From: Mesostigma viride
Lineage: Eukaryota; Streptophyta; Mesostigmatophyceae; Mesostigmatales; Mesostigmataceae
Assembly (NCBI GenBank): GCA_009746045.1
Contig: RPFO01000127.1
Coordinates: 1,749,011-1,813,010 of the forward strand
Direction of reading: 5' to 3'
Length of the DNA stretch: 64,000 nt
Shown: piece by piece, positions 9,086-63,869 of the stretch
How the letters are laid out: each line of letters opens with the position of its first letter
How positions within the stretch are numbered: position 1 is the first letter of the stretch
Position numbers and translations under genes: made by a program
The notes under the pieces: generated by a model
Databases searched by the model: none
The model's input: the letters and a program-made list of their open reading frames with translations, nothing else
What the model was told of the DNA's origin: nothing

Positions 9086-12000
9086 TCAAGGAGGGTGGCT
9101 GACAGACCTAGTTTGCCGCCCGAGCTGCTGCAACAGCGCCAGCTGGGACCGGCTCAGGTGCCCACCATTCTCCATCCGTCGAGCGACCGACGTGCTGACT
9201 TGGCTAAACGCCGTGGGGGCCATGCCCCCCGCTACTTCCCCACTGGCCTTGTCCAACCGCCCGCTGACATGCGCGGGGCTCGCCGCCGCCCTCTTCACCC
9301 AAGGGACCTCCGAAATGCCTGTATGCATCTGGTGCGGGGCGTTGCTGGGTGTGGGCGTCGGCGCAAGGGCCGGAGCGGGCACCGGCGCAGCAGCATGACC
9401 CGCCGCAGCAAGCCCCCGAAAAGCCTCACTCACGCGAGCTAGCGCGCTCGCTTGCTTCTCCGTGAAAACACGCGCGTTGTCCATGGCGGCCGCAAAGCTG
9501 TCCAGCGACCGCTCCCCGTTCCCGTACAGCACCTGCCGCACCTGCAGCATGCGCAGCTGCTCCGCGTTATGACCACTGGCGGCCGGCGTGTGCAGAGCAC
9601 TGGCCGGCACGATCCCTCCGTCGTGACCCCGTGGCCACCGGGGGGCATAAAGTGCGCTCATCGCGGCAGACATGTGTGTGGGGATCGGTCTCTGGGGGGG
9701 TTTGGGTGGTGGCGGCGGCGGCGGCGGTGGCGGGTGCTGGCTGCTAGGCTGCAGGAGACCCAGCAGCGCATTGATCTGCTCCTGTGGAGGGTGCTCCGCT
9801 TCATCTGAGGAGGAATCTGGCGACGATGCTGCGTCGCTGGCGTCCATCACCACGGCCTCCTCCTGAGCCCTCGCGGCCTCCTTGTGGGACCGCAGGCCGA
9901 GCTCGTCGATGAACGCCCACTCCCGCTCAAACGAGTGCTCCAGGTGGCCCGTCATGTTCTGCACTTTCTTGAGGTAGTAGTGCGTGTAATGCGCGCGCGA
10001 GATGTGGGGGGACGAGAAACCGTACACGGTCACCCTCTCGCACAGCATCATGCCGAGCATGATGGCGATCATCCCCGTTGACGGCCACTGCTGGTGCCTC
10101 TCCTGCATCCATGAGTTCCGCACCGCCCGCACGATGTACGGGTGGATGAGCACAAAGGGGCCGCCCTCGATGGGAACCATGGGCACCGCTTGGAAGAATC
10201 GATCCTTGAAGCCGTTAGGAGGTTTGTACAGATCCCCCCGTTTCTCCTTGACCATCGCGGTGGCTAGCCAGTTCACGTCGAGCGGCTTGAAAGCAACCAT
10301 TGCGTATAAATCCGCTTTAACGGGCAATGACTGCGAGGAAGCCGACGCCCTCGACTCTCCCGCCCAATCACTAGAACTGGATTGCGACTCCCCATTCCCA
10401 TCACCCCCACCATTGCTGGGCTCATGACCCCCGTCATCACCATCGCCTGTGCTGTGACTGCCGGCATCCTGGACCGCGCCACGTGGCAGCGGCTGGCTTG
10501 CCCGGTCGGCTCCCGGCGCGTATGCCTCTGGGTAGAATACCCGGATCGTTGTGCGGGTGCCCACGTCCTCCTCGTACCCTGCAACAGGGGCCACATTGAG
10601 CCGTATCACGAGATCGTGATCGTCGATTTCGGCACCCTGGCGGAGACCCAGGATCGTGCCCCCGCTACCCACCACCGCGCATGACCGCCTGCACGGGGCG
10701 GGGAAGGTGCGGCGGAAACGATCCGGCACGCCCCCCTGCTGCGCGACTTTGGTCAGGTCGCTCGAGTGCACGTTGACCGTCCCTGTGGGAAGAGCTTCAC
10801 GGAAGTCAGCGCCACGGTTGACAGAGTCAAGAAACGGGTACCGGCACTGTGAGTAGCGCTTTAAATAGGACGGGAAGAGGCGGTGGGAGAGTCCCGTGGG
10901 GGGGTCATGCAGCGAGGGTGGGGGCGGGGATGGCGCACCCCTACCGTTCGCGCCAATTGCGTTCGCCACCTCTCCATCACCAGCGGCATTGGTCGCTGCC
11001 GCGGCGAAGGATGTGCCAGCGGTTTGGACCACGTTGGCGCTGCTGGTTGCTGGCTCTTTGAGGCAGATGCAGTTTTGATAGTCCCATTCCGGCTCGCGCA
11101 GGTAGTTTGAGATGGACCCTGGAAGGGTCTGCCCGATGGGTGGGTGGTGCTTGATGGTCCCACGCAGGTTGGTGGCGTCGCGAGTGGGCAGGGGGTTCTT
11201 GAGCGTGGGATGGTTGTCGTACTGCAGCGTGGCAGAAAAGAATTCATCCAATACACGCACGGAGCAGGCAAGTGGCTCGTTAAGTAATGTCCTAAGTAGG
11301 TCTTGGTGCATTGTGATGTATGCACGGTTGAGCGAGTCTACGGCTAGCTGCCGTTGAATCCGCGACCTTACACAGCAATAACAAGAGTCATAGAAAGAAA
11401 TGGGCTATTTATTGTTGCGCCCCTTGCTGAACGTCACAGAGCAAACTGCTTCCAAACCAGTCAGGTGAGGTCACTGAAAAACACTCCTGATCCGGCGCAG
11501 CCGTAACAATGAAGAGCTCACTAGACACTGTGTATAGTGCTACTCTTATACTCTTGTTATACTCTTGAGGGTGGAGGCGGCCACCTGCTGGCAGGTGACC
11601 CGATGGTGCACGGAAAACCACGGGAGTGTGCCGGCAATGGTGGCTGATCCGATCTAATACTGGTGTGTTACACTTGCACGTGCCGGTGTGCCGTACCGAC
11701 TCCCCCCCCACTCACCACCCGCTTCCCCTGCTTCGCTTGGAGTGCCTTGTAGCGGGACTGGAGCTCAGAGCGCTTACTGGCACCCGCGGTTTGCTGCAAA
11801 GGCAAGGTCCAGGGGTGCTAGAAATAGATTAGTACAGAGTAGTTCAGGGCGCACGTTGGGGGGGTTGGGGAACTTCCCCACAGCAGCAGTGCAAGGGAGG
11901 GCGGAAAATGGGGGAATGGGAGGGGGGGGGAGGGGAGGAGGGGGGGGAGGAGCGGGTAAAAGGTAGTGCGGTTGGAAATGATGGACCGAAGCTGACCATA

Positions 12001-39935: not shown

Positions 39936-40517
39936 TGATGGGAAAGGGTGTGCCACTTATGTATTAGCAACAGCCTACTGGAGACTGGCATGGGTCAACA
40001 CTTTATAGTTGTCTGAGTAAGTCATAGCCTGGTTTATATCACTGGATTAAGTACGTGACACAGTCACGTGCTCACCAATAAGGGAACCTTCGACTCCTCA
40101 CTCCTGATGTACAAAACGAATCAGAGCGCCAAGCTTCTCTGGATATGCTGGCAGATTATTGCTTTTGCTTGCTGGGCAACAGAACAATCTAAAGGATTAC
40201 TGATGGTCAGTTGCCCAGATACACGTCCAGTATTACCTAGGTGGACCGTAGGTAACCTTCGGTACCCGGCACCAGAATTTATCGTGAACTGGCGCGCCCT
40301 GTCAAAAAGTGCACCCGGCCCAGCCAAATTAAAGGCCACACATGTAGTTGTCTCCCGAGCCACGAGCCACGAGCCACGAGCCACGAGGTAGCCATGGCTG
40401 TCGGAGCTCATAACTTTCACGTTTGAGCGCCGAATTCAGCTGTGAATATCACAATCGCTTCGTCTTTCTAAGACGCACATGCTGATATAATTTTCCGACG
40501 CTATTACGCAATATACG
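39936..40517. other. 3' region of the kinesin-like gene and 5' flank of an ORF1 element
   Basis: Contains a palindrome ACGTGAC-ACA-GTCACGT (40053-40069) like the 3' hairpin of the ORF2 fragment at 8062-8080, possibly a LINE 3'-end relic. A (GAGCCAC)x4 heptanucleotide lies at 40358-40388. No gene in 40070-40517. Confidence 0.5.
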
Positions 40518-41896
40518 ATGAGCAAACGCCTCTCGACGCAACGCAGCCTGGCGGCTGCGCTCGGCAATGAAAATACGCCTGCAGCTTCGGCTGCAGCTTC
40601 GCCCACCGGCCCAGATGGCAACGGTGACACTAGTCGTGCACTGGTGCTCGCCCAGCCTCCCGGGCTCGCCTCGCCATCAGCATCGCCTGAACCTAAGCGC
40701 AGTCGCTCTGCTGAGCCGCCCTGGGAAGAGCGCTCCTTTGACGTCAACAGCCCCGGCTTCTGGCAGCGCAGCCCCACTTGGATTATGGAAGACTTTTATT
40801 ACGGTAATCACGCCTCGCTTCTAGCCATGTGCGTGTACCTCACGACCCACAACCGTGGCCGCTGGCCTGGTGGCGGCGAGCTTGTCGACCCCGCCGAGGC
40901 TCTCCCAATCATTCACCGCATGCCTCGCCCCAAGCTTCAACGCTTCGCCCTCTGCTCCCTTGTTGGACGCTCCGAATCCGAGATCTGGGCTCCCAAACCG
41001 CCCCCCTTCCCCTCCGAAGCCTCCATCCGCACCCTCCTCAAGGAAGCTTTCGAGCAGCACGTGACCCCTCTTGCCGCAGATGTGGCGGCACTTGGCGGCA
41101 CGCTGGCTGCTGAGCTCCCCACCATCCCCACCGCCACCGCCACCCTCCTCGCCTCCACCTCCCCCCCCCCTCCGTCTCCACCGACTCCATCACCGCCCAG
41201 CTCCGCGACATCGACCAGCGCCTCAAGGATAATGCAATCGCTATCGAGGTCTTGCAGAACACAGCAGGCCTCACCGCCCAGGCAGTGAAGGACATTGCCG
41301 CCAAGCCAGCCCCGGCTGGCCTGGCCGGCGATGCTCCTCCCATCACGACCTGGGCGGACATGCTTAAGCAACATACCACCTCCACCACCTCCGCCGTCGC
41401 AGCCCAGCTCCAGCGGCAGACGCTTGACCTCCGCGAGGAGGCCGAGCTCGCCAAGCGCAGCCTCAACGTCATTGTCAAGAATCTCAAGATGGAGGAAGGT
41501 GAGAATTCCGAGAAGCTTGCGCGTGCTTTTGAGAGAGAAATCCTTGATCGCATGGGCCTTACTGGTGAGATCGAGCTGGCCGCCCACCGCCTTCCCCGCG
41601 CGCGGGGTAAGGCCGGGCCGCCCCCGCTCCTTCTCACCTTTAAGACCCCGGCGGACAAGATTTCTTTTCTCAGACGCCGCAAGCGGCTCGAGAAGACTCT
41701 CTTCACCCTTGATGACGACTTGACCCTGGCGCAGCAACAACGGCGACGGGAGCTATGGCCGACCTACCTCCAGCTCCGGCAGACCAAGGCGGGACAGCCG
41801 GTGTACTGGAAGGGGGCGGCCATCTACGTCGGCCATAAGCCCTGGCAGGCGACCCCCTCGACCACCGCGGCCCCAGCAACTCCAGCCCCAGCCTAG
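40518..41896 (+). pseudogene. L1-type retrotransposon ORF1 protein (single frameshift)
   Basis: Starts at ATG 40518. An N-terminal Ala/Pro-rich segment and a unique segment are followed, from about 41171, by a helical coiled-coil-like stretch (ITAQLRDIDQRLKDNAIAIE, DLREEAELAKRS). The RRM-like and C-terminal domain of L1 ORF1 (Transposase_22 type) comes next: VIVKNLK, AHRLPRARGKAG, LLTFKTPADKISFLRR, TLDDDLTLAQQQRRRELWP, VYWKGAAIYV. The stop is TAG at 41894-41896. The two halves are in different frames; the switch is at a run of ten C (41161-41170), consistent with one missing C, so a recent mutation or a homopolymer sequencing error. ORF1p coats element RNA as a trimer in L1. No ORF2 follows. 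Confidence 0.85.
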
Positions 41897-44898: not shown

Positions 44899-45012
44899 TG
44901 TGTGTGAATGTGTGTGTGAATGTGTGCATGTGTGTGTGTGTGTGTGTGTGTACACGTGGGTGTGTATGTGTGGGTGTGTTTTCCCCATCAACTTTCTTGT
45001 TACCCTCTGTCT

Positions 45013-46138
45013 CCAGTTCCTCACGCAGGAGCGGAAGCTCTTTGTGGCCTGGAGAGGGGGGACGGCTATCGACTACCGCGACACGTCCTGGCTCTACACC
45101 TGTGACGAATCCCGCCAACGCACGGTTATCTTGACCAGCTACTACCAGCGCAGCTTCGGCGACATCCACAGAGCACTTTGGGACGAACTCAAAGCCCCAG
45201 CCCCCGCACAGCCGGCAGCCCCATCGGCTTCCTCCCTCTGCAAGGATGACATCCGCGCAGTGCTGGAGGAGCACGTGACCTGGCCGCTGGCCGAGAAGAT
45301 GACCTCGCTGAACACCACGCTCAACACGGTCGAGGCCCGGGTCTCCAACGTGGAAACCAAGGTCGTCCACAAGCTACAACCACAGTTCACGGCGCTACAC
45401 ACCGCGGCGCAGGCTTCGGAAACGCATGCTGCACTTGTCTCTCGCCTTAACCAGGTGGAGGGCAAGTGTGGCGTGCTCCTGAAGAAGCTTGAGGCCATCA
45501 CCGCCCACACCGAGGCCCTGGCCACACAGGTCCCCAAGATAGCGGAGCAGACGGCCACCATTGCATCCCAGCCACCCCGGCAGGATGCTGGCGACCTCCC
45601 GCCGCTCTCCTACGCGGACCTGCTGCGGTCAGCGACCGCCTCCACCACCGACGCCATCGCCACAAAGCTCCAGGAGCTGGAGGACCACCGCCAGGCCCAG
45701 CAACGGGAGGTCACCGACCGCGCTCGCCGCGAGTGCCGAGTGGTGCTACGTCGCTTCCCCCAGAAGCCAGGTGAGACGTCAACCTCTCTTGCTGACGAGC
45801 TCAAGAACCAGCTTCTTACCCTCATGGGCCTGGTAGGTGAGGTAGAACTGCGTGGGTGCCACCGCCTTCCCCACTCACGGGACAAGGCGGCTCCCCCACC
45901 AGCCCTACTCACCTTCCCCTCCCCTGAGGATAAGCAGCGGTTCCTCTCTCGTCGCAAGCGGTTGCACGACCTCACCTGGACGCTGGATGACGACCTCACC
46001 CCCGCTCAGCAACAGCAGCGACGCGACCTGTGGCCGGAATACCTCCGCCATAAGCAGGACCCCCAGAAGCCCAAGGTGTACTGGAGGGGCGGGGACCTGA
46101 TGATCAACCACAAGATGTGGACGCCCCCAGCGGGCTAG
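45013..46138 (+). CDS. L1-type retrotransposon ORF1 protein, second subfamily (5'-truncated)
   Basis: One uninterrupted frame of about 375 codons ending TAG 46136-46138. A long helical region (KMTSLNTTLNTVEARVSNVE, HAALVSRLNQVEGKCGVLL) fits the ORF1p coiled coil. Then come VVLRRFPQKPGE, LMGLVGEVELRGCHRLPHSR, LLTFPSPEDKQRFLSRRKRL, TLDDDLTPAQQQQRRDLWPE and VYWRGGDLMI, the same fold as the copy at 40518 but clearly diverged. No start codon is evident: the frame enters from the GGT/TG microsatellite, so the element was probably truncated on insertion. No ORF2 follows. Confidence 0.8.
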
Positions 46139-46566: not shown

Positions 46567-46687
46567 CCTCCATTCATTTCCATCATCCTGAACGACTCGA
46601 CAAACGCCCGGATAAGATAACAGCAGGCTCGAGCTACCATGGTCCGGATTCTTCAATATTTCTGGCCTGCGCTGGTTGTCTCTTCGA
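46567..46687 (+). repeat. 215-bp dispersed element, partial copy
   Basis: CATCATCCTGAACGACTCGAC ... GAGCTACCATGGTCCGGATTC ... CTGGCCTGCGCTGGTTGTCTC: the 3' half of the element seen complete at 47404-47618 and 53349-53562. It starts just behind the LINE tail at 46556. Confidence 0.85.
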
Positions 46688-47403: not shown

Positions 47404-47618
47404 TATCAAGGAGACAACCAGCGCAGGCCAGAAATCGGGAGAATCCGGACCATGGTAGCTCGAGCCTGCCGTTATCTTGTCCGCGTGTTCGAGTCGTTCA
47501 GGATGATGAAGATGAATGGTGATGGAAATGTGTATCCTTGTGCATTGAAATTATGGCTGGCTTACGTGTAGAGCGACTATATGACCTAGACGGTGGGGCC
47601 GGAAACAGCATGCTTGAT
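47404..47618 (-). mobile_element. 215-bp dispersed element, full copy (inverted)
   Basis: Begins ATCAAGGAGACAACC and ends GCTTGAT, so its termini are short inverted repeats (ATCAAG/CTTGAT). Same length (215 versus 214 bp) and sequence as 53349-53562. No coding capacity. A non-autonomous DNA transposon is likely; no clear target-site duplication was seen. Confidence 0.75.
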
Positions 47619-47827
47619 CAGGGCGTGTGTTTCGAGCCTAACTGGCCGGGAGTGTCTAGTGGTGAGCACCATTGCTGCGATCGCTCTCCCACCATTTACG
47701 AGGAAATACCCGCAAATGGAAAACCACTGAAAAGGTCTAGCTAGTCAGTCATACCCCGTATTATGACAGTATGGGCCAACACGGGTCCCGGCTTCAACTT
47801 TCATCGCGCGCGCATCTCTCCTTCCAG

Positions 47828-47980
47828 CAGCCTACCGTCACGCATGGCACGCCTGCAGTCCTATTCCATCGAGGGTTGGCACCCCGAAGCCGCCCGTACG
47901 TAGTGATAAACGCCCATGGCGTGGACTGCGGCCATTCCTGCAAACGCTTGTTAAAACGCGCACTGGCGCCTGCGGAAGAA
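47828..47980 (+). other. candidate condensation-domain exon with variant HHxxxDG motif
   Basis: After a good acceptor (CTCCTTCCAG) the frame reads [10 protein letters not shown], then [20 protein letters not shown]. This has the spacing of the catalytic region of condensation domains, but HHxxxDG would be AHGVDCG: the second His is kept, the first His and the Asp are changed. The donor is not certain, and an exon of about 20 codons may be missing before 49227. Confidence 0.5.
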
Positions 47981-50295
47981 TGTGCTTTCACGATATCTCT
48001 GGACTCTGAATAGATTCCAGGGCGGAGTAATGCACCTTGCAGCTATACCTTTGGCGTTGCAGACATGCTTCCTTCCGTCCCAAACTAGGAAACTGGCAGA
48101 CAGCGACCGCGATGTCGCAACTGGCATTCATGATTCTGGGCTTCGCATGCAATCTCACGCAATAATGCTTCCGCGCAGGCATTTCCCTGCGTTCCTTACT
48201 CGTAAAATTATTTTTCTGACGTCTCCAGCACAACAATTTTCCCGCGCTTTTTTCTCCTTACATTTTCGGCCTTTTCAGCTTTATGAACGCCGCCTTTTTG
48301 ACCAGCCAAGCTCTGATAAACGGCTCATAACGCCCTCATAACGTGTCGGATACCTACACAACTGAACTGTATTGGAAGCAATTCGAATCTCCTAATGTGC
48401 CGCAGGCTGAAAGTACTGTACAGTAGTAGTAGTAGTTATTGTTGGGTCCCACGCCGCAAAAAGCAGCTTGGCCCTGTATTGGCCCTTGTTGTTGTTGACT
48501 TGTTGTTGCCCACGCCGCATTGGGCAGCAGAGATTTGGAAACGGCCAGGACAGTGAGGATACTGAACAGCATGCCATCACAAACATACAACGCCGGATAG
48601 ATGTAGTATCGGTGCTACTGGGTTGTTGATACTTGTAATGATTCCAAGATATTCCATGGGCTCACTAGGAGACGGTATTCGTACCTGTCCACCCACAGAG
48701 TACTGAGATTGCCCAAGTGCCGAGCCCGTAACCTCCTGCAACCACGTCGCAATATTACTTGGCAAGGCTGCCAGAGTGGCCTCTCCATGACGTTGGCTAC
48801 ATCATGTATTCCGTCAGGCCTCGCATATGCTTGTGGTGGTGCGCTGAGCGCGGCGCCTGTCACTAAGTTGTGGAAGAATCCGGATGGGCTCAGCATGGCG
48901 GAAGGACGCAGCTGGCCGCAGTGTCCGGCCTAGGTGCCTCCGACAGGCTGCGAGCGCGACTTTCTGTAATGTGTCCGAGAGCATAGACGACGGGAATGCC
49001 ATGCCGATAGCGTGTACTTCCAGAAATTGGGCGTCATGGGTAGCCATTATTGGTAGAAAATTTCTTATCTCGCCGCATTGGGGGGTTACGTCGGCAGGCA
49101 TTATGCAGTGGCAGCCGTAACGTTGACATTGTGGGTGGGGATGTCTTTATGAGCTGGTACTTGGTTAATTTCTCCCACCCAACGTCGGAGTGGTGGTAGA
49201 GGTGATTTAATTTGCATAAAACGCAGATGGGGTTGGAAGTGGTGGGGAATGGGACGAGCCAGCTCGTCCCGCTCGATCCTGCAGTGGAGGAGTATTGGAA
49301 TGTGCTGCTGTACGCGAACAAGGCTCCCCCACCGTTGCTGCTACCCCAGGGCGCTACTGTGGCGACGGATGCAGAAAAGTCCCCGTCCAGGTCCGCCATC
49401 GTCGAGCATGATTCCCTGTCCATTCCCGCCAAAACGGTTTCGGGTCTTGAGGTAAGGGGCATTGCGACGACCCTGTAATAGCCTCTGCTGCATGGCGTGG
49501 CCATTATAAGCTTTCCCAGGTGAAGAGATCTCCGTTTTTTCCGTCCGGTGAACATTTGTCAAATGCCGTAATCACGTTGGATGCGTAGACACGCTTTCGT
49601 GTTTCCGGCTTCCCGTCGACATTACAGTAAGATCCCAGTTTCCATAATGATCAGAGCTTGATGTTATGCAGCCCCTTATTCGCAATAGTAAGCAAGTGTC
49701 GTGCCCTGGAACGGCAGCTGGCAGCCTCCTATCCATGTTGTGGCAACATGAGACATGCCAGTGTGTTGTAGTGCATTTAGCATCTCAGGGATGGTGGTGC
49801 AGCCACGCATGCTTTTGCCGGTGCCTGCAATTGTCAGGCCTCGAATGGAGTGGACAGGCTTACATGCCACAACCATGCAGCACTCACCATTCTAAAACAA
49901 GTGGCATTTGCACTAGGTAGGCTTGTGCCACATGTGCTGTTCTCCTGTACTTCGTGTTTGATCAGGCTAGCTGTATTAATGTCCATTGCCTTGACTACAG
50001 GATGTCCGTTAGGGGAATCCGCCAGTTCGCATTAGGTACAGATTCGTTTGAACTTTCGTGCCTTTAGGGTTGCGGTTATAACAGTCGTGCCTTTAGGGTT
50101 GCAGTTATGACAGTATGATATGCCATCTGTGTGAAGGTTGCGAAAGCCCTGCTTTGAGCCCTAGGCCCGTCACCTTCCCCCTCCCATTTCACGCATCCCA
50201 TTTAATTTTTTTCACTAGTTGCCTATATCACCCACCCATCAATACACCCGCCCACCCACCCATCCACCAACCCGCCAGCCCGCCCGCCCGCCCCG

Positions 50296-50368
<73 letters not shown>

Positions 50369-53300
50369 ACCCACGCACGCACACACGTTGTCCATCCTGC
50401 TTAGAGTGGAGTTGAGTGCGTGCAGCATCTATTAAGCTGGAATTACCGTATTCAGATTACCTGCATTACTAGCTTTGAGCATCTGCTGCTGTCAACAATA
50501 TGTCGCAGCCATCGCTGCCGTTGCCTCCATGAGTTGAAGGGTATGCACCACCAGATCAGAATGCTGGCTCTTGCGGATTGCAGCAGCCCAGGTGCATGTG
50601 CCTTATTTCCCTAAGCACCCTATCAGCCCAGGTGCATGTGCCTTATTTCCCTAAGCACCCTATCAGCCCAGGTGCATGTGCCTTATTTCCCTATGCACCC
50701 TATCAGCCCCAACCAAGTCTTAGGTATGCCTGACGAGTCTAGGCATGATGGTGATGCTGGGTCTAGCAACGTAGTAACAGCTGGCAACTGTGCTGTCCTC
50801 CCTGGTCAGACTATGTACTTTGGCTGCTATTTTCCATTCTAGCCTTTAAGAATGTCTCACTTTCTTCCCAGGGATGAGGCGGGCTCGACTTGATGGGGAA
50901 TACATGCTCTGGACATTGATGTATTCCCTGACATGGCGATGACGTAGAGTAATGGATGCGTTCTTCCCTTACATGGCCGTGCCGTAGAGCCATCACCCCT
51001 GCATGCCTTTCTAGGGCCGCCAACGATCACCGGGCTTGGCCGCCGCGGCTAAAATAGAGCTCTCTTTGTATCATGGCTCACCAGAGCATGGACAGTTGCA
51101 CAATCTGCGTTCCTGTTTGAACATCGGTCATCCCCCTCCCCCCCGCTCCCCCCAAACGCCCCCACCCCTGCAGGGCGTGTGCTCCCAGCACAGCTCTTTC
51201 CTCGCGGCCTCCCTCCTCACCGCACTCGTGGCGCTGCTGCACAAGTACTGCAACGAGCAGACCAGCCTGACCGTCGGAGTCATGCTGCCGGGCAGGGTGC
51301 ACAAATTCCCGCCGCCGCCGCGCGTCACTGTCAACGGCATGCGGCAGGTGGGTGGTGTCTGCCGGGACATGGAGAAACATACTTCGGGTCCCTTCTCACA
51401 AAGTAATATGCCTCGGGTGCCTGTCCTCAGAAATTCACACGTCTGGCGCCATGCCAGGTGCACGACCGCTAGAAACCATGTGGCCCACCCTGGCTAGAAA
51501 CCAGCCAGCTAGCTGTGGCCAGAAACCACATGGCCAACCCTGGTCGCTCTAAGAACGCCTCCGCCCTGCGCCCTAAACAGAAGGAGAGCCGGCAAGGGCA
51601 ATGTCGCAGCATTTTTTACATAAAATCGTGTCAGGTGAAGAAAGTCGTGGGGGGATGCCATGCCCACAAGCATGCTCTTCCCTTTTTTCCTCTCTCTCCA
51701 GTGCATATCTGTCTCTCCTCCACCATGGCTGGTGGGCGTGCAACAGCGTGGTGGGTGTGCACCATTCCCTGGCCCGTTTGTAGATGCCACGTTAAAAGTA
51801 ACCGCACGTTCAGACTCCCCAGCACCTTCGCGTCAGCTTGGCGCTATGAATGAGCCCTGCGCGTAAGGCCTGCTTTTGGAAGGATAATGCCGTTGTCTGG
51901 TGCACTTTTTCCCTCTGTCGGATACCATCGTTTCCCGTATTATGCGAAGTGCCTAATTTCTTGTATCTTTATTTCCGGTTTCCTTATTCCCGAAATCCTT
52001 TTGTCCCTAACCTTGTTCCTCATCCTTGTTCCTTATCCTCATTCCCGACATCCGCGTGTCCCTCTGGCTGCCCCCGCTGCCCCCATCGCGCCCCAGGTGC
52101 CCAACTTAGTACCCGTCAATGTTACCACCACCAACGCGGCCTCCGTGGCGGATCTGCTTGCGTCGGTCACGGCGCGACTACAGGGCGCGCTGGCCCACGC
52201 GTCCGCTCCCTTCCCCCTGCTGGTGGAGAAACTGGTGGCGGCCACCTCTGGCAGCAAGGGGGGCAGCATCACCAGTGTCAAGGTGAGCTCAACAGCATGA
52301 GTAGGGCTAGGAGCATCAGCATCACCAGGGCAAGGAAGGCCATAACTAGAGTGTTAGCTATATCACCAGCACCAGGGTGAGTTTGACACCATAGCCACTG
52401 TTGGCAGTGTCACCCGTTGAGATGAGTTTACCTCATAACCAGCACAGTTATGGATACCTGTTTGCGTAATGATTTCCGCTGCAAAGGCCATATCGGATGC
52501 CACGCGGGTGATGCTGCCATCCGCACTCCCCCACCCCCGCCAAAATATCTGCTGCAAGGGACCATGTCAGGTGCGACGACATGCTAGTGTTTGCTTGCGC
52601 AAACGAGGCACACAGGTTAGGTGACGCTCATTTCAACATGCAATTAGGAAAATAATAATAATAAATTTTTTTTTCAGTGTCCTTGGACTGCTTGGCCCAT
52701 CGATGTCTACCTGACCCGAGAACTCTGGCGGCCGTACCACTTGAACTTATGCAAAACATGGACATCACTCATGCCTTCTGTGTGCCTGCAGGCGCGCGAC
52801 AAGAATGAAGGCACCCTCCTCCCCAGCGTGGTGTTGGACTTTTCCGAAGACGTCGATCCATCCACCACGCCCTCCAACGGCCACTCCGACACGGTTGCTC
52901 TTCTGGGCTACACGCCGGCCGTGTATGTGCATGTAAGGCCTGGGGCCGGTGCCCAGGTGGCGGATGATGGCAGCCAACACCGCTCACTGGACGCCCACTT
53001 CTATCTGAACGTGTCAGAGATCGACCCGGTGGTCGCGCGTGCAATGCCGCGCCACCTGGCGGGCATGATGGCCGCGTTTGTCGGGCCAGAAGGCTCGGCC
53101 GTTCCCTTGCACTCGCTCGACTACCTGGACCCCAAGGAGAAGGAGCGGCTATTTTTGGACTTCAACCGCACCGCGCGCGAGTTCCCAAACTGCTGCGTGC
53201 ACCAGCTGGTCGAGCGCGCGGCGGCGCGGCACCCAGACAAAGTGGCGGTCGTCTTTGGGCCCCTGGAGGTGGGTCTAAAGACCTTATGACGCTCTAGGTG

Positions 53301-56300
53301 GCTGCAGTTGCTCACATTTCCACGGAAACCTGTCTGTAAAAGTATATGATCAAGCAAGCTGTTTCCGGCCCCACCGTCTAGGTCATCTTGTCGCTCTACA
53401 CGTAAGCCAGCCATAATTTCAATGCACAAGGCTACACATTTCCATCTCCATTCATATTCATCATCCTGAACGACTCGACAACGCGGACAAGATAACGGCA
53501 GGCTCGAGCTACCATGGTCCGGATTCTCCCGATTTCTGGCCTGCGCTGGTTGTCTCCTTGATGTAGTCTAACCAATACCTCTACAAATTGGTTGCCTTGC
53601 CAAGCTGTGGGTGGCTACAGGCGCCGCCCCCTGGGGATGGCATGTGCGGTGCACGCTCCGATGCTTGCAGGTGTGCAGGGGGATGATGTCCCTTGCGGGG
53701 GTGTCTAGTGGAAGATGTGCGCATCTGCTTCCAGCCTCCATCTCCACCTCTGGAAGATGTGCGCAGCTGCTTCCAGCCTCCATCTCCACCTCTGGAAGAT
53801 GTGCGCAGCTGCTTCCAGCCTCCATCTCCACCTCTGGAAGATGTGCGCAGCTGCTTCCAGCCTCCATCTCCACCTCTTGAGCGAGCGCATGTAGCGTGCA
53901 GGACACCGATGGCTGCTTGGCCAGCATGTGGAGGTTTAGACCGCCAGTCATGCAGAGGGTACCGGGCCAGCGGTGTGCGCTTGTTTGGGTGGTCAGGCTA
54001 AACTGCCTGCATGGCTAGCCAGCCTGCATCCTGCATGCATGCCATGTGGCGGTACCCCAAGCAATGCTGGGGGCAATGCTGTTAAGGGGCATAGGGGTCC
54101 AGTACTACGCAGACAAGTGGTTCCTTACCAGCCGCCTTGTGTCGTAGGAGGAACACACTGACAAGTTTTCATTCTCTATGTGCCCCTCCCCCCCCCGTGC
54201 AGGTGACCTACCGCCGTCTCAACGAGATGTCGAACCAGCTGGCGCACTACCTGCGCACCAAGGGGGCGGGCCACGGCAAGTTTGTGGGCTTGTTCCTGGA
54301 GCGCGGTGTGGAGATGATCGTCGGGCTGCTGGCCATCCTCAAGGCGGGCTCGCCGTACATACCCATGGACCCGGTACGGACACACAACAACACGTCAATA
54401 TGTGCCATGGACCTGCTTGGCTTGACATGATCATACTGTTGTGTATCCTTCGTGCTTGGGGCTCGCTGCTTGGCTTGACATGATAATACCTTGTGGCTTG
54501 CTGGGTCCATTCCCTCCCATGCGTCCGTCTCCTCGCGTTCTCATGCGTCCCTCTTACTCCCTCCCATCTGCCCCTTCCCCCCTCTTGTCTTTTCTCCCTC
54601 CTACTCCCCCCCCCCCCCCCCCCTTCTCTTTCCTGGTTGTCCTCCGCCCCCCCCCCAGGTGTACCCGCGTGACCGCATCGCAATGATGATGGAGGACGCT
54701 GCGTGCACTCTGGTGGTGACGTCGTCCGACCTCAAGGCACGGCTGCCCACCAACACAGCCGAGGGGGGAGCCACCAGCGGATCTGCGCCCAATGTGAGCT
54801 GCCGAGCGCCATCTGTGTGTTGGTTGTCTTATGTTTGCGTGCGGGTGTGGCTGGGGCTGGGGCTGGGGCTGGGGCTGGGGCTGGGGCTGGGGCTGGGGCT
54901 GGGGCTGGGGCTGGGGCTGGGGCTGGGGCTGGGGCTGGGGCTGCGGCTGGGTCTGGGGCTGCGGCTGCGGCTGCGGCTGCGGCTGCGGCTGCGGCTGCGG
55001 CTGCGGCTGCGGCTGGGGCTGGGGCTGGGGCTGGGACTGGGGCTGGGGCTGGGGCTGTGGGTGTGGCTGTGGGTGTGGCTGTGGGTGCGAGCATTGATTG
55101 TTTGGTTGGTTGGCCTTGTGTGTGCGTCTGTGTTTTTTATACACGTTGGTTTTTCTCTGTGAGAGCTGCTGGCTGCTGGGTTTCTCTGGGCGCTTGCGCA
55201 CACTGTTTCACTCGCTCGTCTGCATGTGTGCTCTCTCATCGTCCTTCCATGCAATGGTCTATGTGTGTGTGCTGCATTTTTTACGGTTGTCTGTGTGCGT
55301 ACGCGAGCTTGTTCATGCGCTTGACATTATGTATCTCTCTGTCTCAGCTCATTCTTATTTGTCTCATTTTATGCATTCCCCCCGTGGGCCCCCAAACGCC
55401 AGGGCACCTCCCACTCGGACGGCGCGGTCACGCTCATCTGTCTTGACGAGGAGGCAACACTCATCGGCGACAACTGGAAGGAGGACCTGGTCCCAGATGC
55501 CGAGTTTGGCGCCTGCACGCCCGAGGACCTCGCGTACGCAATATTCACGTCCGGGTCGACCGGCCGGCCCAAGGGCGTGCAGATCAAGCACGTGAGCGTG
55601 GTCAATCTGCTGGCGTCGGAGGCGAGGCTCGCCGAGTTGAGCGAGAGCGATGTCCTGGTCGCAGTGTCGACGATTTGTTTCGACATTGCCGGGCTGGAGC
55701 TGTTCATGCCGCTCATGGTGCGCGTGTGGCGATAAGTGTAGGGGAGGATGGCTGGAAATAGCGATAGGAGGTTGGATCAGTTCATGTTGCTCATGGGGGG
55801 TGATAGCGAGTGTTGGTGGTTAGGGCTAAAGTTATCGATGAGCTGTCCTTGCCGCTCGTGGTGGATGATGATAGCTATAGGCGGCTATGACTGAAAATAG
55901 CGTTAGTTTGAAGCAGGCTATGATGCGCGGTTATACATGTACATTGCTGTATATTCGTAGCTATACATGACTATGCAACAGCTACAGGCTTTAGCTGTAT
56001 GTGCCACCCGTGGTGCATGGCCTTAGCTAAAGGCTGAGACCAGGAAGTTGTCCATCATGATTGATGGAGTGCTGGTAGCCATTTCCTGCAGCGGTCCATT
56101 CTGCTCATGGTGCGTGACCGGAGGTAAGCATGGCTGTAAATAGACTCAGGCTAGAGCTGTTCACGCCGGTCAGGGTGGAGTATGACGATATGTGTGGTTT
56201 TCTGACGTTCCTGCCTGTTTCGCATACGTCCATGCCTGTTGGGTGCCCTGCGGTCCCCAGGCCGGCGCCCGCCTGGTTATCGCCAGCCGAGAGGTGGCGG

Positions 56301-59300
56301 GTGACGGTGACAAACTGCGGCAGCTGATGCGCACGTCAGGCGTCACCGTCATGCAGGTGAGGGGTGGCAGCATTCATTATGGCTACAGGGCTGGGCTCAT
56401 GCGTGCGTGAGGGTGGGCTCCTGCATTAGCTGCATGGATATGCTTCCAAACAAGAAAAGAAAAGGGCTGTTCTTTGCGCAGAGTATGGTGATGGTAGGGG
56501 CCAGCATGATGGTGGCCGTGTTGGGCAGTGTCTGCACACACATGTAGGGTCAGGGGGCAAATGTTTTAGACATGTAGGGTCAGGGGGGTAAGTGTCCTGG
56601 GTGGGGTATTGTGGAAATGGGCCTCTGCACGCACACGTGCTGTGGACGATGATGTTGTTGCAGGGGGGTACACAGTCCCATTCATTACCTCATCTTTAAA
56701 GAGGACACATCCCCGGCTTGCCTTCCCCACCCACCCCACGCCTACCACGCAGGCCACCCCCGCCACCTGGCGCATGCTCCTGCAAGCCGGGTGGACCGGC
56801 TCCCCCTCCCTCACGGTCCTGTGCGGAGGCGAGGCCCTGCCCCGCGACCTGGCACTTCACCTGGTGCCCATCATCAAACGACTCCTGAACGTGTACGGTC
56901 CCACAGAGACGTGCATTTGGTCCACGACTTCGGTCGTTGACTTGACCCTCCCGCTGTCGATCGGCTTCCCTCTCGACAACACGTCAATTTACATCCTGGA
57001 TGAGCGGCTGCGCCCGGTGCCGGTGGGCATGCCAGGTGCGTGTATGGTGCCCTGTGGGCAAGCCAGGTGCATGTTTAGTGCCCTGTGGGCAAGCCAGGTG
57101 CAAGCAACAGGTCTGTAAGGCATCCACTACTCATCCCGTGGCAGCGTTGAATCCCCACCACATTTCGGCCAAAATGTGGACATGAGCGGGCGGTAAGTGG
57201 CAGCAATGCATAGCCGTGGTGTGTAGCAGGCATGCATGTGCAGGATGCTGAATCGCGCCGCTGCGCACAGATGTGGCGATGTGGTCACCTGATTGTGGCG
57301 GTTTGGTCCCAATGGGATGCAAGCAAGTAATTTCTTGCTTTACCCAGCCCAGCTTCCCCCTGCTATGGCTGTGCAACGCAAGCACCTGCCCTAACTGGTT
57401 GGATTCCCATTAAACAGTGCCCTTTCCTGCGTAGCTGTGTATGTACACCCTTCTCCCTTCTTGGTGGCCACTTGTTGCATTCGTTGTCTCTTTCGAATTT
57501 TCCCAGCTGCGTTGCTCACCCCATATCCGTCCTGCGGCTACTGCCATCCCGCCTGCTGCGTTTGCGACCTGCCGCTTCCTGCCTGCTGCTTGTCCTACCC
57601 CGCATCTCGCCCTCTGTCCTGCTTGTTTGCGCTACTACGCTGCCCACGCACATTCCCTACCCCGCAGGAGAGCTCCACATCGGCGGTGTGGGCCTCTCCC
57701 CAGGATATCTCGGTCGTCCGGACCTGACGGCCGACAAGTTCATCCCAAATCCTTACGCGACCTGGGGGGCTGAGCATGGCAAGGGGGGCCGCCCGCTCGG
57801 GTATGCCAACGACAAGATCTACAAGACGGGGGACTTGGCCGCGTGGAATGCGGATGGGTCCATCCGCTGCCTGGGTCGCATCGATCACCAAGTTAAGGTG
57901 AGCGGACCGGTGGCGTGCCATGACAGTTGATGCACGATCTCTGGGTGGCCATGTTGAGAGGACAGGTGGCATTAACCACCCAGGTCAAGGTGGTGGGGTT
58001 TAGGGTCTAGGTCTTAGGTGGGGGCAGATGACATCAATCACCAGGTCAAGGTGATGTGGATGGGAGGCGTGCAATAGATTAATCATGCACCACTATGTGA
58101 AGGTGATGTGGAAATATAGCAGCCACCGCATGGTTGAGGGGGGGTGAGATGTGGACGGATCAGGCTCGCAATGGAGGTAGGTCTTCTGAGAACATGATGG
58201 GAGCCGTGCATCAACAAGGGATGGTGAGAGGAAGGAGGCGGCCGGCCCAGGTGGGACACCTGGGTGGCAACAGGCATGGTGCGTGAGACAAAGGCAGGCG
58301 CCATCAGGGAGTGTGAGCCCTCTGAAGGGATCGCTGGGATAGACGATGGTTTTTTTAGAGATCATCTCCTTGTCCTCACTTTGACATATGGAGCGTGCTT
58401 GTAGCTGCTGACATCCCCCCCTGATCCCCACCCACCACCACCCCACCCCGCACTACCAACCACCACCACCGCCACAATCACCACCACCACCACCACCACC
58501 ACCACCACCACCACCACCACCACCACCACCACCACCACCACCACCACCACCACCACCACCACCACCACCACCACCACCACCACCACCACCACCACCACCA
58601 CCACCACCACCACCACCACCTCCGCCATTCCCCATCACCACCGCCCCACCATCACCCCCTTCCATAATGTGTCATGGGTCAGGTGCGTGGCTACCGCGTC
58701 GAACTGGAGGAGATCGAGGCGGCGCTTTCCCTCTCGTCAATGGTGGAGCACGCGGTGGTGGACGCGCGGCCAGATGCGTCGGGGACGATGCGCCTGGTGA
58801 GGGGGGGGGGGGGGGGGGGGGAATAGATAGATGGCATGCGCCGTATGCCGATGATGGGTCTGGATGATGGGTAGCTGAGTATTCCGCGTCCGATATGATG
58901 AGGGAGGGGGGAATAGTTGGCTTATGAAGTGTGGATGATGATGCAGTGTGGGGATGGTGGGTGGGGAATAATGTGCCCAGCACCATGTGGCTGGTGAGGG
59001 AGGGAGAAATGGCACGCGCCGTGCGAGCCAGGAGATGGTGATTTGGCTGGTGAGACAAAGGTGAGCAGGGGGGCAATGGATACGCAAGGGTTGAGGCAGC
59101 TTTTATAGAGACGACGAGCAGGGACGGACACGCCGCTCATGGATTGGAACTAGGGACAAGAAGAATGGACTTTTAGTTTAGGATGTTTATTTTAAAGTGA
59201 GCAGATGTTTAGTGGGGATGTTCAAAGGTGGATGTGGGTTTGAGCCAGCTGGAGACAGGGGGGAGGGAATACAGGGCGAGGGCATGCGGATGATGATAGA

Positions 59301-62300
59301 CCTTGGACGATGGTGTGGTTGGTCAGGAAGGAGTTATCCAGTCAGGTAATTAATATACCACATTCTGCTGGATGTAAGTAATTTATTATCTGGTCGAAGA
59401 GCAAGGTCAATTGCTCTTCTAGATCCACACAATGTGGGATGGCTGCTGCATGAACCTCTCTAGCATCTACTTTCCGATGTTCCTTGGAAGCATTAGCCGC
59501 GGGCCATCTCACATTCCTGGTCGCACACCGGCTGTCTTTTCCTTCTTGTCCCTTTGTCATTCCTTTTTCTTCTTCTCCCCTTTGTCATTTTCTTCTTTGC
59601 CCCTTGCTGGCCAGGTGGGCTACCTGCTCCTCTCGGAGGCCTATCTCCAAGCCAAGGAGGACGCCAAGGCCTTTGCCGACGCGGAGCGTGCCCACTCTGA
59701 GGACGATGCTTCGGAGAGTTTAGAGAACGGGTCGGTCGACCGGCCCGGTTCCGTGGACGCCAGCAATGCCAACGGTAGCAGCAACCACATGGGCGGTGGC
59801 GGTGGCGGTGGCCACAGCAAGGATAAGGACAAGCCAGGGGTCACTGTGGCGGAGCAAGATTTAGAGGAGGTGGGCAACTGGGGCGCGATCTACGACGAGG
59901 CGTATGCCAGCAGGAACGCGGTCACGGATGACCCCACACTCAACTTCTCGGGATACGACAACAGCTACACGCCACGCGTGCCGCACAAGGTGGGTGGGCG
60001 GGCCAAAGTAAGGCGTTTCTTAGACGCACCAATACTGGGTAGACGGTGTTTGCTGGCAGCCAGTCATGAAGAGAGTTGTGAAAGAGAATGCTTTGATGTT
60101 TTGATGGCACGTCGTCTTTATTGTGTTTATCCCCCGCACCCCCCACCCTTCTCACATTCACTTCCCTGCCCCCACCCCACCCCCCACCCCCTATCCCCTT
60201 CCCTTGTGCTGCCACCCTTCTCAATTAGAAGCACCCTCTCCTGCCCCCTTAGCTGTTCCTTTCCATTGACTTTTGCCTCCGTTTCCCGTTGGCCCCGTCC
60301 GAATTTCTTTGCCCCCCCCCCCCCCCCCTGCCCCCTCTTCCCCCCATTCCCTTTGGCCCCCCTCGCCCATATTTCCTTTTCCCCCCTCATCGCTCGCGGT
60401 CTAACCCCCGGCCCCCCCGGTCCACCAGGCGGAGACCGTGCGGGAGTGGGTGGAGTTCACTGTCGAACGCATCCTTGAGCTCAAGCCCAGCAGCGTGCTC
60501 GAGCTGGGGTGCGGGAACGGGATGATCCTGCTGCGCACCGCGCCCCGCTGCGCGCGTTACATCGGCACCGACCTGTCGGGCGAGGCCATAGCCTACGTTG
60601 GGCAGGTGCTGCGGCAGCCGCGGTTCCACCTGCCGCACGTCACGCTGGACGAGTGCGGCGCACACGAGAGCCTGCGTTTCCGGGTACGTGGTTTGGGCCG
60701 GCACACGGTAGAGTCGCCGGCATGCGTCGCCATGGGGTTTCCGTGCACGTGGTTTGGGCTGCAGAAAAGTCGAATGCGCGTGGTAGCAGATAATGTACGA
60801 TGTCTGTTGGCACTGGCATCTGTAACGGTGTGGGGAAAACCTGGGGCGTTGCATCCCTGCCGTTTGCTGGTAGGGGTAGGGAACATCGCCCAGTTGCGGT
60901 GTCCCTCGTCTATGCTCCTGCAGGCGGCAATTCCTTGAGTGTGGATATCCCGCCGTCCTGGATGACCTGGATGGCCTTTTTGTCAACCCTCTCATCAACC
61001 CTTAATTCAACCTCAACCCTTGTTAACATCCATGCCCACGACTTGATCCTGTCCCCCCGTCCCCCCTACATATCCCTCTCATCTGCCCTCCTGCGGACCG
61101 GCCCACGCACCCTCAACCTGCCCTCCAATAGAACCCATCTTTACACCACAACACCGCCACCTACTCCAACGCACTAGTACACACGACCACCTTCTCCGTG
61201 CCCCCTTGCCCCTCCGCTCATTAACCTTTCTTTGCCAATACCATCCTTTACCCCCTTCTCTCTTCCCTCTTTCCCCCTCACCTCCCCCCCACACCCACCC
61301 CTGCAGGAGCCCGGCCTGGACACCATCGTCTGCAACGGCGTGTCCATGTACTTCCCCTCGCTCGACTACCTCATGTCCGTGACCGAGAATGCGCTCGACG
61401 CGCTGCAGCCGGGGGGGGTCTTCTTCCTTGGGGATGTCCGCAACGCGCGGCTGTTGCGCCAGTTCCACGCGTCGGTGCAGCTCAGCCAGTTGGAGACGAT
61501 GGTCAGCAGTAGTGCGGGGGGGGCGGATGCCAGCGGCCCCGTGGACCCGTTGACCATGTCGACCGCGGATTTGTCGTTGAAGGCGCACCGAGCGGCGCGC
61601 TATGAGAAGGTGCGATGGGGGACGCGGATACCTTGGGACGAATCCCTTGATGACAAAATCAACTGGATGATCAGTAATGGTAATCAACCGCATGATATAC
61701 AACAACTAATTACCGTATGAAAGATAATTGTTAGTTTGATAAGAGGCAGCGTTGTGTGGGGACGCGGATGTGCTTGACAAGTGATGTAGTAGGGTACATG
61801 CGGATGCAATGTGGAAGGGATGATATGGTTCGGTGCGACAGGTGTCAGCGTGCTGTTTTGTTCCCTCACGCACGCCCTTGCAGCATCGGCTGGTGGACCC
61901 CACCCTCCCAGCGCCTCTATTTCTCACCATCCAACCCAGTTTTCCGCACGTGGGTGTCGCTAACCATCCATTGTTTCCCTGTACTTGCTTTTCCTCCCGT
62001 CCCCCTCCCCCGCAGGAGCTGCTGGTCGATCCGGTTTTCTTCGCGCACGTCATCCGCCACCTGCCGCAGTGCTCGCGCGTCGTCGTCCAGCTGAAGCGCG
62101 GCCGCGTGCACTCAGAGTTCACTATGTACCGATACGACGTTTATTTCTACAAGGCGGGCGCCCCCTCGCGCGACGGCACCGCCTCTGCGGGCGATGTGGT
62201 CGAGGTAAGTGCTGTCACATGCGGATGAATGTGGTGCTGGCGCACGCACATAATTGTGGTGGGTGGAGATGGGTGTGTTGTTTAACTGCTCTTTAGAACT

Positions 62301-63094
62301 GCTTGGATTTTAGGTTATGGGTGCGGCGCATTCATGTGGTTCTGGTGGGTGCTGGCCCAGACGGGTCTGTCGCTGCGCAAGTCAAGTTGACTTTTCTCTG
62401 TGTGTGTAATCGTATCCAAATACCAGCATCGTGCCCGTAGTTGCGAACTGTCATTCACCCCTTTTGTGGGTATGAACGGGAAGGAGCTCGGGAAAAGAAA
62501 CTGACAACCCGATCACAGGCGCGTTCCTCGGGACCTTGTCAACGCAGTGCTGGGACGTGTGCACACTTTAGGGGGGTTGCTGAGCAATGCATGCTTATTC
62601 TCACACATGTTTTTAGTTGATGCTGTTACACAAAACCCACCCACCTTCGCCATATGTCACCACAACTAACCTCCGCCCCTGTCCTGACTCACCAATCCCC
62701 TGTTTCTTCGGCCGACAACGCCATGACCGTGCAGGTGGACTATCGGTTTGAGGTGTTCAAACCAGAGTCCCACAACCTGGCCGCGCTGGAGGAGCGCCTG
62801 ACCAGCCCCGCGCCCAAGCACAAGCAGCCACCGGCCATCCTCGCAATCACGGGCATCTCGGACGCGCGGCTGCAGCGGGAGGAGGTGCGTGGGGCAAGGG
62901 GCCGCGGTGTTTTGATTGGTTGGTTTGGTAGTGGACGAGCGGAGGGGTGTTTGGTTGAGTGGAACAGGGGAAGGGGGGAGGGGGGAGGGGGGAGGGGGGA
63001 GGGGGGGAGGGGGAGGGGGGAGGGGGGAGGGGGGGAGGGGGAGGGGGGAGGGGGGAGGGGGGAGGGGGGGGGGGGAGGGGGGAGGGGGGAGGGG

Positions 63095-63129
<35 letters not shown>

Positions 63130-63869
63130 GGGGGGGGGGGAGGGGGAGGGGGGGAGGGGGAGGGGGGGGGGGGGAGGGAGGGAGGGAGGGAGGGAGGGAG
63201 GGAGGGAGGGAGGGAGGAGGGAGGGAGGGAGGGAGGGAGGGAGGGAGGTTGAGGGGTGGGATGGAGGGATGGTGGGGGGGCGGCTGGAGGGCTGAAGGGC
63301 AGGATGTTACCCTGGTGCAATCGGGCAAGCATGCCCGGGTGCTGCGTACGATTCGCCTCGGTATCCGCAGGTGTATCAGGCAATGCCGGGCAAACTCGAC
63401 TTGGGCAGGGTGCTCCTTCAGCAGCGTAGGCCGGTTTTTGTACAGGTTGATCTCACCAAGAGGGCGCCCCCTCAATTCCCCCGTAACCTCTCTCACCGTG
63501 GCTCACTGAGATTGTGTGTCCCTTTGGCATGCTGTGGTAACTTGGTGACACTCTTTTGCATATTTTGCTCTGTGTTTGCCCTCTGCCACGCCCCCTGTCG
63601 GCTGCCCACCCACCATCCATCCTGTTGGCTGCCCACCACCAGATCCTGGTCGAGTACCTCTACGGAAAGCGCCGCTCGTCGATGCCATCAACGGTGCGCG
63701 AACTGTTGGCCGCGCTTGATGCGGAGGTGGCAGCCAACATGGCGGCGGGCGTGTACATCGACCCGGAGGAGCTGTACCTGCTGGGCGACAAGTGCGGCTA
63801 CCGCGTGGAGATGGTGTGGTCGCCTGTGGACGGCAAGGCCACCAAGTTTGACGTGCTCTTCGTGCGCAA
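47828..63869 (+). CDS. nonribosomal peptide synthetase: condensation, adenylation (Gly-type) and N-methyltransferase domains
   Basis: Exons with agreeing phases: 49227-49451, 51174-51347, 52097-52282, 52792-53268, 54203-54373, 54659-54793, 55403-55717, 56261-56356, 56753-57035, 57668-57897, 58683-58796, 59615-59989, 60429-60683, 61307-61609, 62016-62204, 62735-62884, 63643-63869. An earlier exon starting at 47828 (end near 47980) is likely. That is over 1300 codons, and both ends are missing. The order condensation, adenylation, methyltransferase-in-adenylation is that of N-methylating elongation modules. Such a module activates an amino acid as its adenylate, methylates the amine with S-adenosylmethionine and joins it to an upstream peptide. 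Motifs A9/A10 and the carrier protein must lie beyond 64000. At 63868-63873 CGCAA-GTGAGT can be read as a stop (AAG TGA) or a consensus donor; the missing domains favour the donor. Such proteins are common in bacteria and fungi; an intron-dense copy implies long residence in this nuclear genome. Confidence 0.9.
47981..49226. other. intron or unassigned region in the synthetase gene
   Basis: No exon recognised on either strand; a short (TAG)n run lies near 48424-48437. A small condensation-domain exon could be hidden here. Confidence 0.4.
50297..50352. repeat. poly-C tract of 56 bases, followed by (CA)n
   Basis: Homopolymer in the intron 49452-51173; its length is unreliable in most sequencing. 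Confidence 0.95.
50584..50703. repeat. 40-bp tandem repeat, three copies
   Basis: CAGCCCAGGTGCATGTGCCTTATTTCCC...; copies at 50584, 50624 and 50664, nearly identical. Intronic. Confidence 0.93.
53349..53562 (+). mobile_element. 215-bp dispersed element, full copy in NRPS intron
   Basis: ATCAAG ... CTTGAT ends, 214 bp, matching the inverted copy at 47404-47618 along its length. It lies in the intron 53269-54202 of the synthetase gene. Confidence 0.8.
53705..53878. repeat. 42-bp tandem repeat, four copies
   Basis: GGAAGATGTGCGCAGCTGCTTCCAGCCTCCATCTCCACCTCT units, almost identical. Intronic. Confidence 0.93.
54851..55085. repeat. (GGGGCT)n/(GCGGCT)n hexanucleotide array
   Basis: About 38 hexamers with blocks of GGGGCT, then GCGGCT, then GGGGCT, then GTGGCT variants, in the intron after 54793. 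The C-rich strand is of the type known from other genomes to form i-motif or G-quadruplex structures. Confidence 0.95.
55718..56177. repeat. degenerate tandem copies of the upstream exon end and donor
   Basis: The exon ends GAGCTGTTCATGCCGCTCATG, donor GTGCG. The same block recurs at about 55778-55796, 55838-55863, 56091-56115 and 56153-56177. TGGCTGGAAATAGCGATAG-like sequence also recurs at 55750, 55888 and 56131. Confidence 0.75.
57022..57097. repeat. 31-bp tandem triplication across a 5' splice site
   Basis: GTGGGCA(T/A)GCCAG-GTGC occurs with the CAG/GT junction at 57035, 57066 and 57097, exactly 31 bp apart. The first is the donor used in the exon model. Confidence 0.9.
57885..58108. repeat. 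degenerate copies of exon end and donor in intron
   Basis: Exon end ATCGATCACCAAGTTAAG-GTGAG is echoed at 57969-57993, 58032-58056 and 58084-58108 (CATCAATCACCAGGTCAAGGTGATG and similar). Confidence 0.75.
58479..58620. repeat. (CCA)n array, about 47 copies
   Basis: Perfect trinucleotide array in the intron before the exon at 58683, complementary in sequence to the (GGT)n array at 44628. Confidence 0.97.
59836..63869 (+). other. N-methyltransferase domain inserted in the adenylation domain
   Basis: After a Ser/Asn/Gly-rich linker, [10 protein letters not shown] and [11 protein letters not shown] lead to [11 protein letters not shown], then [13 protein letters not shown] (SAM-binding motif I), [59 protein letters not shown], and [12 protein letters not shown] near 63800. 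This is the standard N-methyltransferase of methylating modules, placed between A8 and A9. It argues for N-methylation of the loaded residue. Confidence 0.88.
62968..63247. repeat. (GGGGGA)n then (GGGA)n purine array
   Basis: Purine-only stretch of about 280 bp on the plus strand in the intron 62885-63642. Long open frames on both strands across it are artefacts. Confidence 0.95.

Follow-up and report, generated by a model that had tools for sequence, protein, structure and literature searches.

A gene that begins in a 64,000-nt stretch of the Mesostigma viride genome (GenBank assembly GCA_009746045.1, contig RPFO01000127.1, positions 1,749,011–1,813,010 of the forward strand; here called the window) may encode a single-module enzyme of green algae that resembles nonribosomal peptide synthetases (NRPS) but whose product is a single unit of N-methylated glycine instead of a peptide. 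We give this reading a probability of about 0.5. The domain order, the pocket code, the motifs, the half condensation domain and the catalytic acid missing in relatives are read from sequence, and from these we infer the substrate, the degree of methylation, the product and the mode of release. In the window, the gene comprises 17 exons on the + strand (49227–63869) starting with an ATG at 49227, and it continues past the window end. The spliced product of 1301 residues is identical to residues 1–1301 of a public gene model of 1751 amino acids (aa) (eukprot: jgi/Mesvir1/3260/Mv16397-RA.2; here P0001), whose tag, Mesvir1, we read as M. viride, a streptophyte alga.

The order adenylation (A), N-methyltransferase (N-MT), carrier (T) and CocE/PepX-type (S15) alpha/beta-hydrolase was found in all 20 members of a family that includes the Mesostigma gene, and both P0001 and its relatives contain a single module. 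A provisional 1327-aa protein, which included one exon that was later dropped, was used as the query for the Pfam, structure, protein and plasmid searches. In the window gene, Pfam detected a partial Condensation (C) domain, AMP-binding at 336–702 (E 2.7e-84) and Methyltransf_12 at 951–1051; the full-length P0001 additionally matched AMP-binding_C, PP-binding and Peptidase_S15. The carrier (PF00550, residues 1432–1491 of P0001) lies outside the window. Its serine motif, GG(H/Q)S, was present in 20 of 20 members, one of which (P0206) had no precomputed PF00550 match. No type I thioesterase (PF00975) was detected in the four members scanned by Pfam or among the precomputed domains of the 20, and the Pfam matches included no reductase domain. 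The earlier note on this DNA had looked to the sequence beyond the window for the end of A, the carrier and the release domain; P0001 does supply A10, T and a CocE-type hydrolase.

The family was assembled from the 20 proteins bearing PF02129 among the 120 listed of 1020 matches, all of which were aligned; a 21st member, P0232, was checked for motifs only. The members are about 40–46% identical to P0001. Four carry organism names and all are green algae, namely Mesostigma (P0001), Tetraselmis sp. GSL018 (P0055), Pyramimonas (P0073) and P0057, the tag of which (Tetstr1) we read as Tetraselmis striata. The remaining 16, from jgi, ena and lgn sources, are presumably metagenomic. Seven members (P0155, P0157, P0178–P0181 and P0183) form a tight subgroup represented by many sequences, the cluster of P0180 at 90% identity containing 350, and this subgroup comes from an organism that appears to be common.

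Phylogenetic analysis of 516 A segments, drawn from two protein searches with an 85% coverage filter and at most three segments per protein, and of 38 MT segments placed the 20 members in a single clade with support of 1.0 in both trees. The tips were picked by similarity to the queries and the sample is therefore limited. The sister of the family in the A tree was P0043 (support 0.92), a module with the DILQLGLIW code and an MT. In the midpoint-rooted MT tree P0001 fell outside the other 19 members, and in a tree of the full-length family proteins the midpoint was located elsewhere.

After splicing, the pocket code of the A domain reads D-I-L-Q-L-G-V-I-W together with the A10 lysine, one residue from DILQLGLIW. 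A search of the open-access literature for the string DILQLGLIW found no paper. Motifs A3, A5, A7, A8 and A10 were compared across the 20 members; the A10 lysine was present in every one and the code was DILQLGV(I/V)W-K in 19, the exception being P0212 (DILQMGVVW). At position 322, the site of the difference, 225 glycine-like A segments sampled from outside the family had M in 108 cases, L in 81 and V in 35. The available part of a survey of 93 Gly-activating domains (PMC12283262) describes variation at positions 299, 322 and 330 and names DILQLGMIWK. Among solved structures, the A domain matched 5u89, a DhbF fragment (355 bits), the module of which uses glycine. The Mesostigma A domain is predicted to load glycine. 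The N-MT follows A8 and is followed, in the 1751-aa model, by A10 (NGKVDRKALP). The combination of a glycine-like code with an MT was found in all 20 members vs at least 4 of the 225 other segments, and glycine is predicted to be N-methylated on the carrier, the degree of methylation being likewise a prediction. Part of the earlier note is upheld here: the pocket residues it had listed are those of the spliced protein, the MT does sit between A8 and A9 (the Methyltransf_12 match lies between AMP-binding and A10), and Lys517 is present in P0001 at a position outside the window. Its proposal that the module loads glycine and methylates it is favoured by the conserved code and by the occurrence of V322 elsewhere.

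The Pfam match to Condensation covers only positions 195–343 of the 456 in the profile, and in the members tested only the second lobe of a C domain was recognisable. This lobe is predicted to be folded. The HHxxxDG motif was absent from the N-terminal part of all 20 members, some of which may be incomplete at the start. As only the second lobe remains, no condensation would be expected within the protein. The earlier note had described a peptide synthetase that incorporates sarcosine, and this description does not suit a protein with one module, half a C domain lacking HHxxxDG and a terminal T plus CocE-type hydrolase.

The C-terminal part of P0001 matched the NCBIfam model TIGR00976 (CocE_NonD) with 130.2 bits against a cut-off of 66.3. 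When aligned using MAFFT, this part (219–226 positions) was 46–52% identical to six bacterial proteins. The S15 fold, the nucleophilic serine and the catalytic histidine are kept in the relatives. Alpha-amino acid ester hydrolase (AEH) has a carboxylate cluster of Asp209, Glu310 and Asp311. In 19 of 19 members, column 166 (Ser+33 in P0073) is an aspartate and lies close to the position of Asp209, a comparison made by approximate location and not by residue-by-residue alignment with AEH. Recognition of an alpha-amine in the manner of AEH was considered and not adopted. The available part of PMC3890990 gives Asp308, Glu310 and Asp311 for AEH, and the motif where these residues would lie has no acid in the algal-type members.

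Taken as a single-residue enzyme, the protein would work as follows. The A domain would adenylate glycine and load it onto the T domain, and the N-MT would methylate glycyl-S-T using S-adenosylmethionine (SAM) to give sarcosyl-S-T. With half a C domain, the condensation step would be missing from this protein. The serine of the CocE/PepX-type domain would then take the sarcosyl group from T and release it, by default to water, which would yield free sarcosine, or possibly to another acceptor. For this release step we estimate about 45% for hydrolysis, about 35% for transfer to an acceptor and about 20% for an inactive domain.

Several observations weigh against production of one N-methylated glycine unit. 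P0001 has the hydrolase serine and ends before the histidine, and the site of the triad aspartate also lies beyond its end; at 1751 aa it is shorter than the other 19 aligned members (1804–2350 aa). In the relatives, the column of the triad aspartate, which a profile alignment pairs with the aspartate of the CocE segment AGWYDGF, contains no acid; G was found in 19 of the 19 testable members vs D in six of six bacterial relatives. Ordinary hydrolysis is therefore doubtful. Of the four members scanned by Pfam, two had no match to Condensation. The short P0001 segment grouped in the S15 tree with the six bacterial sequences and not with the algal ones, at a support of 0.43, so that a single fusion event is no more than a possibility. 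Sarcosine can be made more simply by soluble glycine N-methyltransferases. The open-access literature yielded no sarcosine measurement for these algae. A link between Tetraselmis and sarcosine via PMC9695272 was rejected, as the sarcosine measurements in the available part of that paper concern a bacterium.

The missing acid brings forward the possibility that the CocE-like domain is a transferase, in which a Ser-His pair without Asp transfers sarcosyl from its serine to an amine or an alcohol and so forms an N-methylglycyl conjugate. We regard this as possible, at distinctly less than even odds. It would account for the retention of Ser and His beside a uniform swap of the aspartate, a change seen at just one other column that is invariant in the bacterial sequences, in the jelly-roll (D to A). 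However, at seven more columns the charged residue shared by all six bacterial sequences has mostly given way to varied residues in the family, and drift is therefore possible; the acceptor and the product are hypothetical, a different acid could substitute, and the AlphaFold2 model is of moderate quality (pLDDT 68.6). An improbable alternative, closer to the view of the earlier note, is that the protein is one module of a multi-protein line in which sarcosyl-S-T is consumed by a trans-acting C domain and the sarcosine ends up in a peptide. A, N-MT and T do make up the set of an elongation module, the C lobe is predicted to be folded, and other Mesostigma NRPS loci are listed in the available part of PMC10794256, but the uniform absence of HHxxxDG, the lack of a second module in the family proteins and the hydrolase fused at the end all argue against it.

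It is quite unlikely that the substrate of the A domain is not glycine but, for example, sarcosine or betaine itself. The codes are predictions and V322 differs from the M and L of the commonest glycine codes, but more than 30 of the non-family glycine-like codes share this valine and the position is reported as variable in the accessible part of PMC12283262. Slightly less likely still is an inactive relic of an NRPS that Mesostigma acquired horizontally. Loss of function would be consistent with the half C domain, the triad acid missing in relatives, the long simple repeats found in several introns and the early end of the public model. Against this, the 1301 residues are open over 17 exons with the A and MT motifs intact, the A10 and T motifs are present in the public model, and the domain order has been conserved at identities of about 40–46%.

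An old origin in green algae would fit these observations. When bacteria were considered as carriers of the whole fusion, no bacterial-named entry was found among the proteins with PF02129 in three protein searches (8, 20 and 6 proteins, among the best 120 of 7610, 1020 and 3548 matches, respectively), where only four of the 20 family members are named; a bacterial source of the whole fusion is still compatible with this result. No instance was confirmed in viral contigs with P0180 as the query or in genome contigs scanned with the hydrolase segment of P0073, the latter being a weak test as the patterns were exact words of one protein. A tblastn search of plasmids with the 1327-aa protein returned only ordinary NRPS among the 15 matches listed (31–39% identity, Nostoc first). 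More speculatively, and at well under even odds, the family could represent an ancient green-algal route to N-methylglycine bound to a carrier, in which a dedicated one-module megasynthase charges glycine and methylates it at least once and an Asp-less CocE transferase forms an N-methylglycyl or betaine-like metabolite, perhaps common in phytoplankton. If the single-residue reading is right, an architecture common to Mesostigma (Streptophyta), Tetraselmis and Pyramimonas (Chlorophyta) and 16 relatives would make a small N-methylated amino acid or its conjugate and would be an undescribed algal source of methylated nitrogen compounds. A module of the bacterial assembly-line type would have become a one-residue enzyme fused to a peptidase-type hydrolase, and the role of a CocE fold without Asp would be a directly testable question of chemistry.

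The gene contains 16 complete GT-AG introns, and a further donor at 63869/63870 (CAA|GTGAGT) opens a 17th, in keeping with the count of at least 17 and the end coordinate of 63869 in the earlier note. Its start at 47828 was not borne out. The first codon of the public model is the ATG at 49227, and tblastn with the family proteins (six of the 20 inspected) gave no match upstream of that position. When 330 C-domain segments were compared with the window, the best match near 47828 (47798–48112, E 0.11) was no better than those elsewhere on either strand, and a first exon at 47828 was rejected. A further candidate exon at 63371–63445 (25 aa) was dropped because it is not in P0001. Introns have a mean length of 671 nt, and coding sequence makes up about 27% of the gene span. 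Of the complete introns, 15 of 16 are in phase 0, the exception being the one after exon 9. This excess need not be seen as an oddity, as insertion at AG|G sites, 54 of 66 of which are also in phase 0 in the coding sequence, would explain it.

The first exon (49227–49451) carries the ATG, the beginning of the second C lobe and a GTAAGG donor. The half C domain continues in exons 2 (51174–51347) and 3 (52097–52282), which were both matched by C-domain segments, and ends in exon 4 (52792–53268), where the A domain begins. The A domain occupies exons 5 (54203–54373) and 6 (54659–54793), exon 7 (55403–55717; A3 and pocket residues D235, I236 and L239, within FDIAGL), exon 8 (56261–56356; the last codon is pocket residue Q278), exon 9 (56753–57035; L299, G301, V322, I330 and W331), exon 10 (57668–57897; A7 and the start of A8) and exon 11 (58683–58796; the end of A8). 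The exon 9/10 splice can equally be placed at 57036/57669, a shift of one base. Exon 12 (59615–59989) encodes a linker and, from about 59858, the inserted N-MT, which includes its SAM motif in exon 13 (60429–60683; Methyltransf_12, E 6.7e-12), continues in exon 14 (61307–61609) and ends in exon 15 (62016–62204). Exons 16 (62735–62884) and 17 (63643–63869), the latter ending at the donor CAA|GTGAGT, encode the cassette that follows the MT and precedes A9/A10. Exons 2–6 were recovered by family tblastn, and all 17 belong to the spliced product that is identical to residues 1–1301 of P0001. The A10, T and CocE/S15 domains lie past the window end and are known from P0001. An inverted pair of 216 nt (96% complementary) was found upstream of the gene (47405–47620) and in the intron after exon 4 (53347–53562). 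Incomplete copies in direct orientation lie near 46627 and 47246, and the repeat is perhaps a short interspersed element.

Elsewhere, about 690 perfect tandem copies of CTCA occupy the start of the window (1–2758). An open frame on the - strand (9089–11404) includes a sialyltransferase domain of glycosyltransferase family 29 (Pfam E 6.2e-45). Two open stretches on the + strand (40491–41893 and 44975–46135) share a similar tail, TLDDDLTxAQQQ..RR.LWP.YL, and had no Pfam match; in our reading they resemble ORF1 of a long interspersed nuclear element. A + strand frame at 7092–8003, also with no Pfam match, has YADDITLIEK near its start and, again in our reading, resembles the tail of a reverse transcriptase.

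No description of this architecture was found in the open-access literature. Genes of this kind had been called rarely described in the earlier note, which needs qualifying: a JGI model of this gene is already public, and the available part of PMC10794256 lists six NRPS candidates from M. viride NIES-296. These are among eight candidates called multimodular and lacking a thioesterase; the present architecture does not appear in that part of the source, and the gene could not be assigned to any of the six. The sarcosine modules of the cyclosporin and actinomycin synthetases have the same glycine-type A domain split by an N-MT at A8/A9 and followed by T. However, those synthetases are multimodular with full C domains, whereas the algal enzyme is a single module in which the C domain is halved and a CocE-type domain is present. 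Among the CocE/NonD (S15) hydrolases, such as cocaine esterase, AEH and X-Pro dipeptidyl peptidase, the algal domain stands apart in being fused to an NRPS module and in the absence of the triad acid from all testable members. Enzymes of the adenylation–carrier–reductase type, such as glycine betaine reductase, also dispense with condensation and use a one-residue, glycine-derived substrate, but their release is reductive. Monomodular NRPS of the IndC type, as described in the available part of PMC8949500, are similar in having one module, an enzyme nested at A8/A9 and a single amino acid; there the nested enzyme is an oxidase and the amino acid Gln, whereas the algal enzyme combines a nested N-MT with a Gly code and a CocE-type domain.

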